Translations under genes and position numbers: made by a program
The notes under the pieces: generated by a model
What the model was told of the DNA's origin: nothing
Databases searched by the model: none
The model's input: only the letters and a program-made list of their open reading frames with translations
Assembly: GCF_019222765.1 (NCBI RefSeq)
Contig: NZ_CP078145.1
Coordinates: forward strand, 6,696,001 to 6,760,000
DNA: 64,000 nt
Origin: Nocardia iowensis
GTDB taxonomy: Bacteria; Actinomycetota; Actinomycetes; Mycobacteriales; Mycobacteriaceae
Reading direction: 5' to 3'
Part shown: one piece after another, positions 36,780 to 42,655 of the stretch
Position numbering within the stretch: the first letter of the stretch is position 1
Layout: each line of letters starts with the position of its first letter

Positions 36780-37736
36780 TTAACCCTTGTGCGACTTGAC
36801 CGCTTCGGTCAGCTGCGGGGCGACGTTGAACAGGTCGCCGACGATGCCGTAGTCCGCGATCTCGAAGATCGGGGCCTCTTCGTCCTTGTTGACCGCGACG
36901 ATGGTCTTCGAGGTCTGCATGCCTGCCCGGTGCTGGATGGCGCCGGAGATGCCGAGGGCGATGTACAGCTGCGGCGAGACCGTCTTACCGGTCTGGCCGA
37001 CCTGGAACTGGCCCGGGTAGTAGCCGGAGTCGACCGCGGCACGCGAGGCGCCGACGGCGGCACCCAGCGAGTCGGCCAGCGCCTCGACCACCGAGAAGTT
37101 GTCGGCGGAACCGACACCACGGCCACCGGAGACGACGATGGTCGCCTCGGTGAGTTCCGGACGGTCACCGGCGACGACCGGTTCGCGCGAGGTCACCTTG
37201 ACGACGCCGTCTTCCTGAGCAGGCACCTCGACGGTGACCTTCTCGCCGGCACCGGCCTGCGCGGACGCCTCGATCGCGCCGGGGCGCACCGAGATGACCG
37301 GCACATCGCCGTTCGACTTGGCGTCGACGGTGAACGCGCCACCGAAGATGGAGTGCACGGCGGTGCCGTCGGACTTCACGTCGATGACGTCGACCAGCAG
37401 GCCGGAGCCGATGCGGGCGGCGAGGCGGCCCGACACCTCCTTGCCTTCGGCCGAGGCGGCGACGATGACGGCGGCCGGGGAGACCTGCTCGGTCAGCGCG
37501 GCGAGCACGTCGACCTTCGGGGTCACCAGGAAGTTCTCCACGTCGTCGGATTCGGCGATGTAGATCTTCTCGGCGCCGGCCGCGGCGAGCGCGTCGGCCA
37601 GCTTCTCGCCGGTGCCCGCGGTGCCGAGCACGACGGCGGCGGGCTCGCCCAGGTTGCGGGCGGCGGTCAGGAGCTCGGTGCTGACCTTCTTGATCGCACC
37701 GTCTGCGTGCTCAACGAGCACAAGTACTTCAGCCAT
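36780..37736 (-). CDS. etfA: Electron transfer flavoprotein alpha subunit
   Basis: A 318-residue ETF alpha that carries the FAD. The C-terminal domain has [11 protein letters not shown], the [25 protein letters not shown] region and [16 protein letters not shown], the standard flavin-binding motifs. It takes electrons from acyl-CoA dehydrogenases and hands them to the respiratory chain. It is the second gene of etfBA, 36 bases after etfB, and is followed by a strong terminator. Position and order match Rv3028c (fixB). Confidence 0.97.
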
Positions 37737-37772
37737 TTGTGTTCTCTCCTAAGCAGTCTCAGATCGGCGTGA

Positions 37773-38558
37773 TCAGATGATCTTCTGACCGACGAGGTAC
37801 TGGGCGATCTTGGTGCCGCCATCGCCCTCGTCCGCGATCTTCTCGCCCGCGGTGCGCGGCGGCTTCGGGGTGGCTCCGGTGACGGTGGTGCCCGCGTTCG
37901 CGACACCGACGGTCGACGGGTCGACGCCGAGGTCGGCCAGCGTGAAGGTCTGCACTTCCTTCTTCTTCGCGGCCATGATGCCCTTGAAGGAGGGGAAGCG
38001 CGGCTCGTTGATCTTCTCGTTGACGCTGACGATGGCCGGGAGGGTGGCCTCCAGCTTGAAGACGCCGTCGTCGGTCTCCCGCTCGCCGGTGATCTTGTCG
38101 CCGTCGACGGTGAGCTTGCGCAGGTGAGTCAGCTGCGGCAGGCCGAGGTACTCGGCGATGATGGCGGGCACCGCACCGGCGCGACCGTCGGTCGCCTCGT
38201 TGCCCGCGATGACCAGTTCGACACCTTCGACCTGGCCGAGCGCGCTCGCCAGCACCCAGGCGGTCTGCACGGCGTCGGAGCCGTGGATCGCCGGGTCGTT
38301 GATGTGGATGGCCTTGTCGGCGCCCATGGACAGCGCCTTGCGGATGGCCTCGGTGGCCCGGTCCGGACCGGCGGCCAGCACGGTGACCTCGCCGCCCTGG
38401 GCCTCCTTGATCAGCAGCGCCTCTTCGACGGCGCGCTCGTTGATCTCGTCGAGGACGGCGTCGGCGGCTTCGCGATCGAGGGTGTAGTCACCATCGGTCA
38501 GCTTGCGCTCGGACCAGGTGTCGGGAACCTGCTTGATGAGTACGACGATGTTCGGCAT
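37773..38558 (-). CDS. etfB: Electron transfer flavoprotein beta subunit
   Basis: A 261-residue ETF beta with AMP-binding fold. It starts MPNIVVLIKQVPDTWSERKL and has the ISFGSD-type segment GADKAIHINDPAIHGSDAVQTAW and VIAGNEATDGRAGAVPAIIAEYLG, which are family hallmarks. The ATG at 38558 has a strong AGGAGGT upstream; a longer frame to 38648 lacks support. It dimerises with EtfA for beta-oxidation electron transfer. It corresponds to Rv3029c (fixA). A 22-bp palindrome about 100 bases upstream may control it. Confidence 0.97.
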   Translation of the reverse strand: MPNIVVLIKQVPDTWSERKLTDGDYTLDREAADAVLDEINERAVEEALLIKEAQGGEVTVLAAGPDRATEAIRKALSMGADKAIHINDPAIHGSDAVQTAWVLASALGQVEGVELVIAGNEATDGRAGAVPAIIAEYLGLPQLTHLRKLTVDGDKITGERETDDGVFKLEATLPAIVSVNEKINEPRFPSFKGIMAAKKKEVQTFTLADLGVDPSTVGVANAGTTVTGATPKPPRTAGEKIADEGDGGTKIAQYLVGQKII

Positions 38559-38658
38559 CGGTCTTCGTCGACCTCCTGTTCTGGTTACACGTATGGGCGG
38601 TCGCACGAGCGGGCCGTACGTCCGTGTGAGTAGCTCAGGGCGTGACACTACCCTACGT

Positions 38659-38837: not shown

Positions 38838-39656
38838 ATGAGCGAGGCTGTGATCCCTGCCGCAGTGGACGACCCGACGGGCACGACCGGCGCCCCCGAG
38901 ACGACCATCGGCGCCGTCGAACCGCTGCCGTTGACCGGCGAGCGGACCGTCCCCGGCATCGCCGAGGAGAACTACTGGTTCCGCAGGCACGAGATCGCCT
39001 ACGCCGAACTGCTCGACCGCTGCGCCGGAAAAACCGTGCTGGAGGCCGGATCCGGTGAAGGCTACGGCGCGGACATGATCGCCTCGGTAGCCACCAAGGT
39101 GATCGGCGTCGACTACGACACCGGCGCGGTCGAGCACGTGCGCGCCCGCTACCCGCGGGTGGAGATGATCCAGGGCAACCTCGCCGAACTGCCGCTCGAC
39201 GACGCTTCGGTCGACGTGGTGGTGAATTTCCAAGTGATCGAACATCTTTGGGACCAAGCTCAGTTCCTCCGGGAGTGCTTCCGGGTGCTGCGTCCCGGCG
39301 GCGAACTGCTGATCAGCACGCCCAACCGGATCACCTTCTCCCCCGGTCGCGATACCCCGCTCAACCCGTTCCACACCCGCGAACTGAACGCCGCCGAGCT
39401 CACCGAACTGCTGGTCGACGCCGGATTCGAGGTTGCCGAGATGACCGGCGTGCACCACGGCCCGAGCCTGAAAGCGTTGGACGCCAAGCACGGTGGTTCG
39501 TTCATCGACGCGCAGATCGAGCGGGCACTGGCCGGTGAACCATGGCCCGCCGAGCTCACCGCCGACGTCGCGGCCGTCACCATCGAGGATTTCGTGCTGG
39601 TCGCCGAGGACATCGACGCGAGTCTCGATCTGGTCGCCATCGCGGTGAAGCCGTGA
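38838..39656 (+). CDS. Class I SAM-dependent methyltransferase (methylglucose lipopolysaccharide-type, Rv3030-like)
   Basis: A 272-residue cytoplasmic methyltransferase. Motif I VLEAGSGEGYGAD binds SAM, followed by VIGVDYDTGAV (motif II acid) and DVVVNFQVIEHL (motif IV). It stands first in an operon with a GH57 enzyme and a glycosyltransferase, the same order as Rv3030-Rv3031-Rv3032, which in mycobacteria make the polymethylated glucose lipopolysaccharides that modulate fatty-acid synthase. The predicted job is O-methylation of the glucose chain. Its TGA overlaps the GTG of the first 77-bp repeat unit. Confidence 0.9.
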   Translation: MSEAVIPAAVDDPTGTTGAPETTIGAVEPLPLTGERTVPGIAEENYWFRRHEIAYAELLDRCAGKTVLEAGSGEGYGADMIASVATKVIGVDYDTGAVEHVRARYPRVEMIQGNLAELPLDDASVDVVVNFQVIEHLWDQAQFLRECFRVLRPGGELLISTPNRITFSPGRDTPLNPFHTRELNAAELTELLVDAGFEVAEMTGVHHGPSLKALDAKHGGSFIDAQIERALAGEPWPAELTADVAAVTIEDFVLVAEDIDASLDLVAIAVKP

Positions 39657-39733
39657 GTGAGCGAAGCGAACGAACCATCGGCACAGCGCTCTTGGGAACG
39701 ACGGAGCCGAGGCTCAGCGAGGCGCAGTCGTGA
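39653..39733 (+). CDS. Mini-ORF in repeat unit 1 (26 codons)
   Basis: GTG at 39653 overlaps the methyltransferase TGA (GTGA), and its own TGA (39731-39733) overlaps the GTG of unit 2. The peptide begins VSERSERTIGTA and ends RLSEAQS. Whether a peptide accumulates is unknown. More likely the frame exists so that ribosomes pass from the methyltransferase into the GH57 gene; this is how the tandem mini-ORFs of mycobacterial MIRU elements are arranged. Confidence 0.5.
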   Translation: MSERSERTIGTALLGTTEPRLSEAQS

Positions 39734-39806
39734 GTGAGCGAAGCGAACGAACCATCGGCACAGCGCCCTTGGGAACGACGGAGCCGAGCGCTAGCGAGGC
39801 GCAGTC
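39653..39806 (+). repeat. Two tandem 77-bp MIRU-like repeat units
   Basis: Unit 1 is 39653-39729 and unit 2 is 39730-39806; by eye they differ at five of 77 positions (one at the CTC/CCC site, four at GGCT/CGCT-type changes near the end). Each unit begins GTGAGTGAGCGAAGCGAACG and ends GCGAGGCGCAGTC. The GH57 gene's GTG falls exactly at the start of what would be a third unit. Since 77 is not a multiple of three, each unit shifts the frame, and stop-start overlaps restore translation each time. Confidence 0.9.
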
Positions 39807-39810
39807 GTGA
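39730..39810 (+). CDS. Mini-ORF in repeat unit 2 (26 codons)
   Basis: GTG at 39730 overlaps the TGA of unit 1's mini-ORF, and its TGA at 39808-39810 overlaps the GTG start (39807) of the GH57 gene. The peptide begins VSERSERTIGTAP and ends SASEAQS. The same reasoning as for unit 1 applies: a coupling device is more likely than a functional peptide. Confidence 0.5.
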   Translation: MSERSERTIGTAPLGTTEPSASEAQS

Positions 39811-41405
39811 GCAGCGAGGCTGTTCCCGGCCAGTTCACCCTGGTCTTGCATTCGCACCTACCGTGGTTCGCCCATCACGGCCGCTGGCCGGTCGGTGAGG
39901 AATGGCTCTATCAATCCTGGGCCTCCTCTTACCTTCCGGTCGCCGAAGTCCTGAGAACCCTTGCCGCCGAAGGACGTTCACATCTGCTGAGCCTCGGCAT
40001 CACGCCGGTGCTCGCGGCCCAGCTGGACGACCCGCACTGCCTGGCGGGGATGCACCACTGGCTCGGCAATTGGCAGCTGCGCGCCGACGAGGCGGCCATG
40101 GCGGGCAACATCGCCCTGGGCAGGCACGAACATCGTTTGGCCACAGCGGCTTTGGCGGATTTCGAGGAACGCTGGCGGCATGGCGCGGCACCGGTGTGGC
40201 GTGCGCTCATCGATGCCGAGGCGATCGAACTGCTCGGCGGCCCGCTCGCCCATCCGTTCCAGCCGCTGCTCGATCCGCGACTGCGCCAGTTCCAGCTCAA
40301 CGAGGGCCTGGACGACGCGCGACACCGCTGGGGCCACACACCGACCGGCATCTGGGCACCGGAATGCGGCTACACGCCGGGCATGGAGATCGGCTACGAC
40401 GCCGCCGGTGTGACACATTTCATGGTCGACGGGCCCGCATTGCGGGGCGACACGTCGCTCGGACGGCCGGTGCGCGAGTCCGATGTGGTCGCGTTCGGGC
40501 GCGATCTCCAGGTGAGCTACCGGGTGTGGTCACCGAAATCGGGCTACCCGGGCCAGAGCGCCTACCGTGACTTTCATCACTATGACCACGCCACCGGTCT
40601 CAAGCCGGCCCGCGTCACGGGCAAGACCGTGGCAGGCCCGGACAAGGCGCCGTACGACCCGGAGCTCGCGGCGGCGGCGGTGGTCCGCGATGTCGACGAC
40701 TTCGTCCAGACGGTGCGCGAGCGACTGATCAGCGAATCCGCCCGCATCGGCAAGCCCGCGCTGGTGGTGGCCGCGTTCGACACCGAACTGTTCGGCCACT
40801 GGTGGCACGAGGGGCCGCAGTGGTTGGCCCAGGTGTTGCGGGCCCTGCCCGAAGCCGGGGTCACCGTCGGCACGCTGGCCGACGCGCGCGAACGCGGATT
40901 CGTCGGTGCGCCTGTGCCATTGGCCGACTCGTCCTGGGGTTCGGGCAAGGACTGGCGGGTCTGGGCCGGGGATCAGGTAAGCGACCTGGTCGAACTCAAT
41001 GACGACATCGTGCGGCTCACCCTGGAAACGATCGACAAGATGCGCGCCGCCGACGGTGGACCCGCCTTGCGCGACCACGTTGCCGACCAGTTGCTCCGGG
41101 AAGCGATTCTCACCGTGTCCAGCGACTGGGCGTTCATGGTCAGCAAGGACTCCGCCGCGGGCTACGCGCGCGACCGCGCGCATCAACACGCGCACGCCGT
41201 GCGGGAGATCGCGGCCGCCGTCGGCGCGGGCCAACTCGCGAAAGCACAGCAGTTGGCGGCAGGATGGGGGGCGAGTGACGGACTCTTCCCCGGTGTGGAT
41301 GCGCGACGACTCGACAGCGCCGGGTCCGGAGAAAGCTTCGCCGTGGCTGCCGCCGCCCCAGGATCGGGCCCCGCTGAACGGTCCACCGCAGAAGGACATG
41401 CATGA
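39807..41405 (+). CDS. Glycoside hydrolase family 57 alpha-glucan branching enzyme-like protein (Rv3031-like)
   Basis: A 532-residue GH57 enzyme. It opens with FTLVLHSHLPWFAHHGRWP, the usual first strand. The nucleophile Glu is in GIWAPECGYTPGME and the acid/base Asp in VVAAFDTELFGHWWHEGP; a helical C-terminal domain follows with DWAFMVSKDSAAGYA. Family members cut and re-attach alpha-1,4-glucan as alpha-1,6 branches; here the substrate should be the growing methylglucose chain. It starts at a GTG that overlaps the second repeat mini-ORF, and its stop overlaps the glycosyltransferase ATG. Confidence 0.93.
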   Translation: MSSEAVPGQFTLVLHSHLPWFAHHGRWPVGEEWLYQSWASSYLPVAEVLRTLAAEGRSHLLSLGITPVLAAQLDDPHCLAGMHHWLGNWQLRADEAAMAGNIALGRHEHRLATAALADFEERWRHGAAPVWRALIDAEAIELLGGPLAHPFQPLLDPRLRQFQLNEGLDDARHRWGHTPTGIWAPECGYTPGMEIGYDAAGVTHFMVDGPALRGDTSLGRPVRESDVVAFGRDLQVSYRVWSPKSGYPGQSAYRDFHHYDHATGLKPARVTGKTVAGPDKAPYDPELAAAAVVRDVDDFVQTVRERLISESARIGKPALVVAAFDTELFGHWWHEGPQWLAQVLRALPEAGVTVGTLADARERGFVGAPVPLADSSWGSGKDWRVWAGDQVSDLVELNDDIVRLTLETIDKMRAADGGPALRDHVADQLLREAILTVSSDWAFMVSKDSAAGYARDRAHQHAHAVREIAAAVGAGQLAKAQQLAAGWGASDGLFPGVDARRLDSAGSGESFAVAAAAPGSGPAERSTAEGHA

Positions 41406-42655
41406 AGATTTTGATGGTGTCGTGGGAGTACCCGCCGGTTGTGGTCGGCGGGTTGGGCAGGCACGTGCATCACCTGGCTACCGAGTTGGCCGTGGCGGGC
41501 CACGAGGTGGTCGTGCTGGCGCGCCGTCCCTCCGGCACCGACTCCTCGACCCACCCCACCCACTCCTTCATCGCCGAGGGCGTGCTGGTGGTCGCGGTCG
41601 CGGAGGACCCGCCGGTCTTCGATTTCGGCGAGGACATGCTGGCCTGGACGCTGGCCATGGGGCACGCGATGGTGCGGGCCGGCATCGCGCTCGGCAAACC
41701 CGGCATCGGTGACGGCTGGGTGCCCGACGTGGTGCACGCGCACGACTGGCTGGTCGCGCACCCCGGCATCGCGCTGGCCGAGTACTACGACGTGCCGCTG
41801 GTGTCGACCATTCACGCCACCGAGGCCGGGCGGCACAGCGGCTGGGTCGCGGGCAAGGTCAACCGGCAGGTGCATTCCGTCGAGTGGTGGCTTGCCAACG
41901 AATCCGACGCGCTGATCACCTGCTCAGCATCGATGCAGGACGAAGTGGAGCGGCTCTACGGACCGGAGCGGGTGCCGATGACGGTGATCCGCAACGGAAT
42001 CGACGTGGGCGCCTGGACATTTCGGCCGCGCTCGCCACGCACCGGCCCGCCGCGGCTGCTGTACGTCGGCAGGCTCGAATACGAGAAGGGCGTGCAGGAC
42101 GCGATCGCCGCACTGCCGCGCATCCGGCGCGCGCACCCCGGCACCACGCTCACCATCGCCGGTGTCGGCACCCAGTTCGACTGGCTGCGTGAGCGTGCGC
42201 GGGTGCATCGGGTGGCCCGCGCGGTGACCTTCGCCGGACAGCTCGACCACACCGAACTCCTCGGCTGGCTGCACGGAGCAGACGCCATCGTGCTGCCGAG
42301 CCGCTACGAGCCCTTCGGCATCGTCGCACTGGAGGCGGCCGCCGCTGGCACCCCGCTGATCACCTCCACCGCCGGTGGCCTCGGCGAAGCGGTCATCGAC
42401 GGCGTCACCGGCGCCTCCTTCGCCCCCGCCGACGTCGACGGTCTCGTCGAAGCCGCCCGCGCCACCCTCGACGACCCCGCCGCCGCCCAAGACCGCGCCT
42501 ACGCCGCCCGCGAACGCCTCACCGCCGATTTCGCCTGGGACGTCGTAGCCGCCGAAACCGCCCAGGTCTACCACTCGGCAAAACGCCGCGTCCGCAACCC
42601 ACTCGGCCGCCCCACCATCATCGAACGCCCCCTCCCCGAACGCGACCCCAAGTAG
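41402..42655 (+). CDS. Alpha-1,4-glucosyltransferase, GT4 family (Rv3032-like)
   Basis: A 417-residue retaining glycosyltransferase with the GT-B fold. The N-terminal domain has MVSWEYPPVVVGGLGRHVHHL (glycogen-synthase-like loop). The C-terminal domain has YVGRLEYEKGVQDAI and the nucleotide-sugar EX7E motif PSRYEPFGIVALEA. It should elongate an alpha-1,4-glucan from ADP- or UDP-glucose; the mycobacterial homologue serves both methylglucose lipopolysaccharide and glycogen. It is the last gene of the operon, overlapping the GH57 stop by four bases, and converges with the DUF1697 gene. Confidence 0.93.
   Translation: MKILMVSWEYPPVVVGGLGRHVHHLATELAVAGHEVVVLARRPSGTDSSTHPTHSFIAEGVLVVAVAEDPPVFDFGEDMLAWTLAMGHAMVRAGIALGKPGIGDGWVPDVVHAHDWLVAHPGIALAEYYDVPLVSTIHATEAGRHSGWVAGKVNRQVHSVEWWLANESDALITCSASMQDEVERLYGPERVPMTVIRNGIDVGAWTFRPRSPRTGPPRLLYVGRLEYEKGVQDAIAALPRIRRAHPGTTLTIAGVGTQFDWLRERARVHRVARAVTFAGQLDHTELLGWLHGADAIVLPSRYEPFGIVALEAAAAGTPLITSTAGGLGEAVIDGVTGASFAPADVDGLVEAARATLDDPAAAQDRAYAARERLTADFAWDVVAAETAQVYHSAKRRVRNPLGRPTIIERPLPERDPK

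Follow-up and report, generated by a model that had tools for sequence, protein, structure and literature searches.

The window, by which we mean the whole stretch of 64,000 nucleotides that was analyzed, belongs to the 8.95-Mb, single-contig genome of Nocardia iowensis and contains an operon in which, by Pfam assignment, a methyltransferase gene is followed by a gene for a GH57 branching enzyme and then by one for a GT4 glycosyltransferase. Two units of 77 bp each lie between the methyltransferase and the GH57 gene, at positions 39653-39729 and 39730-39806; they are identical at 72 of 77 bases and thus differ by five mismatches. Tandem Repeats Finder (TRF) yielded a single row across the 64-kb window, namely this repeat (period 77, 2.1 copies, score 297). 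Each unit opens with a GTG start codon, runs for 26 codons and terminates at a TGA contained within the following GTGA. The first GTGA contains the methyltransferase stop, and the third GTGAG at the locus is the GH57 gene's own start codon. The features are as follows (window positions):

38838..39656, + strand: methyltransferase gene (ORF; Methyltransf_11, E 6.8e-24); its TGA (39654-39656) overlaps the GTG of unit 1 by 4 nt
39653..39657, + strand: GTGAG, copy 1 of a direct repeat, containing the methyltransferase stop; the other copies are at 39730-39734 and 39807-39811
39653..39729, + strand: repeat unit 1, 77 bp; frame from GTG to TGA at 39653-39733, 26 codons
39719..39722, + strand: GAGG, Shine-Dalgarno-like, 7 nt upstream of the GTG of unit 2
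39730..39806, + strand: repeat unit 2, 77 bp; frame at 39730-39810, 26 codons
39796..39799, + strand: GAGG, Shine-Dalgarno-like, 7 nt upstream of the GH57 GTG
39807..41405, + strand: GH57 family gene, branching-enzyme type (Glyco_hydro_57, E 6.5e-13; BE_C, E 2e-18); its start GTG overlaps the stop of unit 2 by 4 nt
41402..42655, + strand: GT4-type glycosyltransferase gene (Glycos_transf_1, E 6.1e-39); it overlaps the GH57 gene by 4 nt, with no unit between

The original prediction had described two 77-bp units five mismatches apart between these two genes, with TGA/GTG overlaps and 26-codon frames; the sequence and the TRF result bear out the pair, and the overlaps and frames are present as described. 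An etfA/etfB-like gene pair (names judged from sequence) is located at 36780-38648 of the window on the - strand, divergent from the methyltransferase operon. The gene order of this pair together with the operon presumably resembles that of mycobacterial Rv3028c-Rv3032.

A BLAST search of the N. iowensis genome with the 158-bp unit pair returned 41 places. With R1, a sequence-only model built from 47 units, 90 matches were obtained in the same genome at E<=0.01, and 82 of these had E<=0.001. The 82 matches demonstrate that the unit pair is more than chance, and they remove the reservation attached to the original prediction that a whole-genome search might reveal no other copies. The places at E<=0.001 were taken with 2 kb on either side, the window included, and scored by nhmmer, which resolved 81 units in 65 arrays (50 single, 14 double and 1 triple), counts that, like the others for this genome, include related copies; one of the places (L218) gave no nhmmer match. 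The exact end of the array coincided with the start codon of an ORF (minimum length, 60 aa) in 51 of the 65 arrays. Fifty of these 51 genes are at least 100 aa long, and 50 lie in the best-scoring coding frame. The positions suggest that the repeat became dispersed through the Nocardia genome by landing precisely on gene start codons.

Complete units, defined as those bounded by RTGA (57 of the 81), are 74-81 bp long, with 77 bp in 32 and 80 bp in 17 of them, and the length is 2 mod 3 in 50. Of the 57, 54 have this frame open, compared to 32 and 30 with the two alternative frames open; these counts are weakened by the fact that GC-rich frames are frequently open by chance. The frame ends at the -4 overlap in 49 units, reads past it in five and stops early in three. 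A GAGG precedes the next start in 54 of the 57 (by 7 nt in 52 and by 6 nt in two); shifted controls over twelve windows gave 0-5, except for one with 34/57 that is due to another conserved GGAG in the unit. A count of indel patterns with zero net length change (29/36) was dropped as independent evidence because units of equal length net to zero by construction.

The 5' end is degraded in 11 of the 65 arrays. Among the 54 arrays in which it is intact, 42 are linked through RTGA overlaps to an ORF of >60 codons; eight of the remainder read past the unit, two stop near the start of the gene at a position other than -4, and two are unlinked. As a control, 38 of 207 RTGAG-initiated ORFs of 15-60 codons from the same loci terminate at an RTGA from which an ORF of >60 codons starts. 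Judging from the translations, four of the eight read-past arrays (L021, L035, L198 and L203) form in-frame N-terminal extensions of the gene. At L133/L171, L315, L318 and L319, metG-like and purQ-like genes (names judged from sequence) and genes after units in genome G750 start with MSERSER codons. Such genes look as if a unit had captured the gene start, and since some host genes begin with the element's MSERSER codons, the family may also rewrite protein N-termini.

The open frame, together with a recognizable MSERSER start and a SEAQS-like end, might indicate that the unit is a small gene whose peptide of 25-27 residues (MSERSER...SEAQS) is functional in itself. We consider this highly unlikely. 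The middle of the peptide varies with the frame of the subfamily (SERTIDTAP vs QRANQRYSAP), its nucleotides being translated in a different frame from one subfamily to another; the two ends agree. In addition, the 26-residue product has no Pfam match, and the peptides are fused end to end in the sepF arrays described below.

Next to the frame itself, the sequences ahead of the arrays carry signals for initiation. According to an automatic codon-usage call, the array begins on the stop of a co-directional upstream frame in 19 of 65 cases, the window included. A Shine-Dalgarno-like core at -16 to -5 is present in 32 of the 54 arrays with a clear first RTGA, compared to 2-9/54 in twenty shifted controls. 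The motif TANNNT, a feature of leaderless mRNAs at such spacing, is found 5-9 nt ahead of the first base in six of the 54 arrays (0-3 in shifted controls). In 10 of the 54, overlapping stop, Shine-Dalgarno core and TANNNT are all absent upstream. The overlapping stops, Shine-Dalgarno cores and TANNNT motifs found before the arrays suggest that the native initiation signal of the gene mostly now faces the unit.

It could also be that the unit matters as a structured RNA or DNA element or as a promoter (an attenuator, a hairpin or a transcription start) and that the frame is incidental. Short stems in the middle of the unit do score above shuffles (mean score 10.9 vs 8.0, a value reached by 0 of 2000 shuffles), and an analogy for a promoter is provided by the senX3-regX3 intergenic region bearing a mycobacterial interspersed repetitive unit (MIRU), which drives regX3 according to PMC4213456. 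The stem excess is, however, small when compared with swapped halves (10.9 vs 10.2, sd 0.25); RNAalifold on the 47-unit alignment yielded five pairs, none of them compensatory; the window region folds in the same manner as its shuffles (z 0.57); and we found no Rfam match and no terminator or sigma-70-like promoter pattern, the promoter scan covering the sigma-70-like type. On the basis of RNAalifold, the shuffles, Rfam and the promoter/terminator scan, the RNA-structure reading was rejected and the central stem is regarded as a side feature; an incidental frame appears very improbable to us.

Arrays at a gene called sepF from its sequence offer a further view of the frame. In N. iowensis, sepF is preceded by two chained 80-bp units. 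In six other genomes from the R1 family sample, the sepF arrays comprise 1-3 units. In five of these six, the inner units are 81 bp long and have TTG, CCG, CGG or TCG as the first codon, and each array is consequently read as a single frame, 54 or 81 codons long; the sixth genome has one unit with a 24-bp in-frame repeat behind it, 35 codons in all. The arrays measure 104, 161 or 242 bp, all of which are 2 mod 3, and their stop overlaps the sepF ATG by 4 nt. Because the sites are related by descent, the six arrays do not represent six independent events. The original prediction held that re-initiation is needed at each unit. This applies to the site in the window but does not extend to sepF of the six other genomes, where the arrays are fused or extended in frame.

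The length rule also bears on the idea of a selfish insertion that is merely tolerated, with frame and Shine-Dalgarno sequence inherited from recent master copies. Many units are indeed close copies of each other, and the degraded arrays (11/65) would be in agreement with such a history. However, a length of 2 mod 3 is maintained in units of 68, 74, 77 and 80 bp and, in a different manner, in the fused or extended arrays of 104, 161 and 242 bp; we regard mere tolerance as quite unlikely.

To compare the junction between methyltransferase and GH57 genes, 80 named Nocardia loci matching the window's GH57 protein were used, 79 of which contain both genes. The window's two-unit array was found at none of the 79 named Nocardia junctions; a two-unit sequence fixed in all relatives, the outcome that would have spoken against the original prediction, is thus not seen. 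The junction of N. tenerifensis (L048) reads AAGCC-TTGA-GCAGC and consists of a single overlap. In N. wallacei and N. mexicana (L077:2922-2999 and L081:2846-2986), a different insert with GCCGGGAATGTNNGTGGGGCG-like repeats is located between the methyltransferase stop and the GH57 gene.

Unit-less sites were also seen at other genes. At a permease start (query protein L199; best 30 loci, 59 genomes searched), a unit is present in one locus and absent from 29, and these 29 unit-less loci of the 30 all keep the -4 overlap. By eye, a 23-bp remnant of the unit is discernible at the permease start in L235, L239 and L240, where an 8-codon frame overlaps the gene start. At trpA (query protein L018, Trp_syntA; best 30 loci), seven loci have a unit, 21 have a plain -4 overlap and two are of another type. 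In a genome set with one genome per species, these results support the expectation of variable sites at the level of species: the array is absent from relatives at the window's locus, and unit number varies between species elsewhere (sepF, trpA).

We then compared the left and right borders of 30 single units. In 28 of 30, both sides have an identical base before TGA (14.9 expected, permutation p 5e-5), and in 18 of 30 an identical sixth base (11.9 expected, permutation p 0.007), with no excess of matches from the seventh base on. The nearest neighbor of a unit has the same left letter in 33 of 41 cases; base 1 follows subfamilies, and TGA is invariant. The first-letter match alone was accordingly rejected as proof of a duplication, and the base-6 test and the empty sites were added. 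With the first letter confounded by subfamilies, the left/right matches fit a duplication of 4-6 bp.

Taken together, we propose, with a probability of roughly three in four, that the units represent a short non-autonomous mobile element that resides at start codons and would pass ribosomes on to the displaced gene. Entry would take place at a start-codon RTGA, with RTGA and probably one or two further bases left on both sides of the element. The native signal (an upstream stop overlap, a Shine-Dalgarno sequence or, in a few cases, a leaderless promoter) would then start the element frame, mostly of 26-27 codons, which would offer GAGG 7 nt ahead of the next start and a TGA overlapping that start by 4 nt. 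After terminating there, the ribosome would re-initiate on the displaced gene or, where the unit has been multiplied into a tandem array, on the unit that follows. An uninterrupted open frame reaching the gene start would be preserved, more so than the peptide. Translation of the frames, transfer of ribosomes and movement of the element by an enzyme are what we infer from sequence; given the positions, the -4 stops, the sepF arrays and the chains, a translational bridge, as the original prediction had it, appears to be the best reading of the dispersed units.

Translational coupling via short upstream ORFs is reviewed in PMC12548453. The proposed mode of action is similar in that a short frame would bring ribosomes to an overlapping start, but differs in that the coupler in Nocardia would be a dispersed, apparently mobile repeat inserted at genes that have no relation to one another. 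REP elements with RAYT/Y1 transposases are short, dispersed, non-autonomous repeats in extragenic spacers. The Nocardia units share these three properties with them, but are located on start codons and not in extragenic spacers. Y1_Tnp (PF01797) has 0 matches in the N. iowensis genome and is present in 27 of 146 genomes of the genus; a resident Y1 transposase was rejected as the mover since there is none in the host genome. MITE-type terminal inverted repeats were not seen by eye, the ends GTGAGTGAGC.. and ..GGCGCAGTC not being inverted copies of each other. The unit has no exact pattern match in viral contigs, no BLAST match at 1e-5 in plasmids and none at 1e-2 in phages, and carriage by phages or plasmids was rejected on these grounds.

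Within Nocardia, R1 has matches in 139 of the 148 genomes covered. In the family sample, 38 of 301 genomes match: 24 are of the genus, and 14 belong to the other 272, mostly with one weak match. The order sample gave matches in 130 of 298 genomes (37 of 76 genera) and the class sample in 53 of 296 (28 of 114 genera), many of the matching genomes in both samples having a single weak match; the number of matches counted per genome has an upper limit set by the tool. Among 40 strong outside regions hand-picked from the list tops, 20 at the order and 20 at the class level, RTGA overlaps link the units to an ORF of >60 codons at 20/20 order-level and 19/20 class-level loci; the 20 order-level loci are not independent because 17 stem from one genus (g45) and nine of these have the same flank. 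Two loci from other genomes (L324 and L325) carry tandem units of 68 bp with 23 codons. Searches of open-access PMC papers, covering mostly titles and abstract openings, turned up no account of units of this kind in Nocardia or in any other genus outside mycobacteria, in keeping with the original statement that none was known outside mycobacteria. Whether the units belong to an undescribed, class-wide actinomycete family of mobile translational-coupling cassettes, which would integrate at RTGAGY start codons, would have a sequence shaped to make insertion near-neutral for translation and of which MIRUs would be a distant or convergent branch, is a proposal for which we see the chances as evenly balanced.

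According to the 2025 review PMC12548453, which cites Supply et al. 1997, MIRUs appear to be mobile, with start codons as their insertion sites and coupling at -4 nt; the senX3-regX3 MIRU belongs to a 77-bp size class according to PMC4213456. Like MIRUs, the Nocardia units are dispersed and multi-copy, contain a short frame that overlaps the gene start by 4 nt and occur in tandem copies, and their mobility can be read from the empty sites. The size match that the original prediction had pointed out is of little weight, as units of 80 bp (17/57) and, at L324/L325, of 68 bp also occur.

For a direct comparison, a MIRU probe was used, 20 loci were then taken and 23 units were delimited by the start rule. 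The probe matched 18 of 301 family genomes, with up to 17 matches in one genome, and its reversed control matched 17 of 301, never with more than one match each. Twelve of the 23 delimited units stop at -4, and most are ~53 bp long with 18 codons. With nhmmer, neither the Nocardia profile against the MIRU loci (best E 0.024) nor the MIRU profile against the Nocardia and order-level loci (best E 0.17) gave a significant match. At many MIRU loci, the order-level unit profile makes contact with the core of the MIRU at E 0.03-0.5, which is suggestive and not significant. The multi-copy MIRU-probe genomes G275, G416, G367 and G391 have no R1 matches among the matches listed. The similar start that had been claimed for the two kinds of element reduces to RTGA, as the MIRU loci in this comparison begin like ATGACGCGCGCCGGCGACGATGCAGAGCG.

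These data bear on the view that the units are true MIRUs, that is, one family, diverged or transferred, with the same mode of action. The shared architecture (each end an RTGA, and a short frame that overlaps the start behind it), the -4 stops of the MIRU units and the contact of the order-level profile with the MIRU core speak in its favor; the non-significant profiles in both directions and the four multi-copy genomes speak against it, and we judge it unlikely. Further differences are that the host genera are not the same, that the Nocardia units are mostly 77/80 bp with 26-27 codons whereas most MIRU units are shorter, that in-frame fused arrays at sepF are found for the Nocardia-type units, and that the latter family is not restricted to mycobacteria, as its presence across the genus illustrates. 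By analogy, the Nocardia units would thus work like MIRUs, yet we do not file them as MIRUs; the designation MIRU-like holds for the start/stop overlap and for a dispersed repeat outside mycobacteria, and is not supported for membership in the MIRU family by sequence.

A start codon is about the last site where an insertion should be tolerated. A family that lands there and supplies a frame, a ribosome-binding site and an overlapping stop would provide termination-reinitiation in many natural replicates, from 0 to 3 units that are chained or fused, with such well-studied operons as trpB-trpA among the sites, and the cost of one extra re-initiation step would become measurable. Such a family would account for recurring MSERSER-like N-termini and misplaced start calls, would provide variable loci for comparing Nocardia, and would imply that a MIRU-like way of life exists outside mycobacteria as well; the mover of such elements would become a sharp, searchable question.

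In another genus of the family (G159, L154-L159), the second half of the unit differs (..GCGCACGGAGCGAAGCGAGTACGTGC ATGAG), and the frame comprises 27-28 codons.
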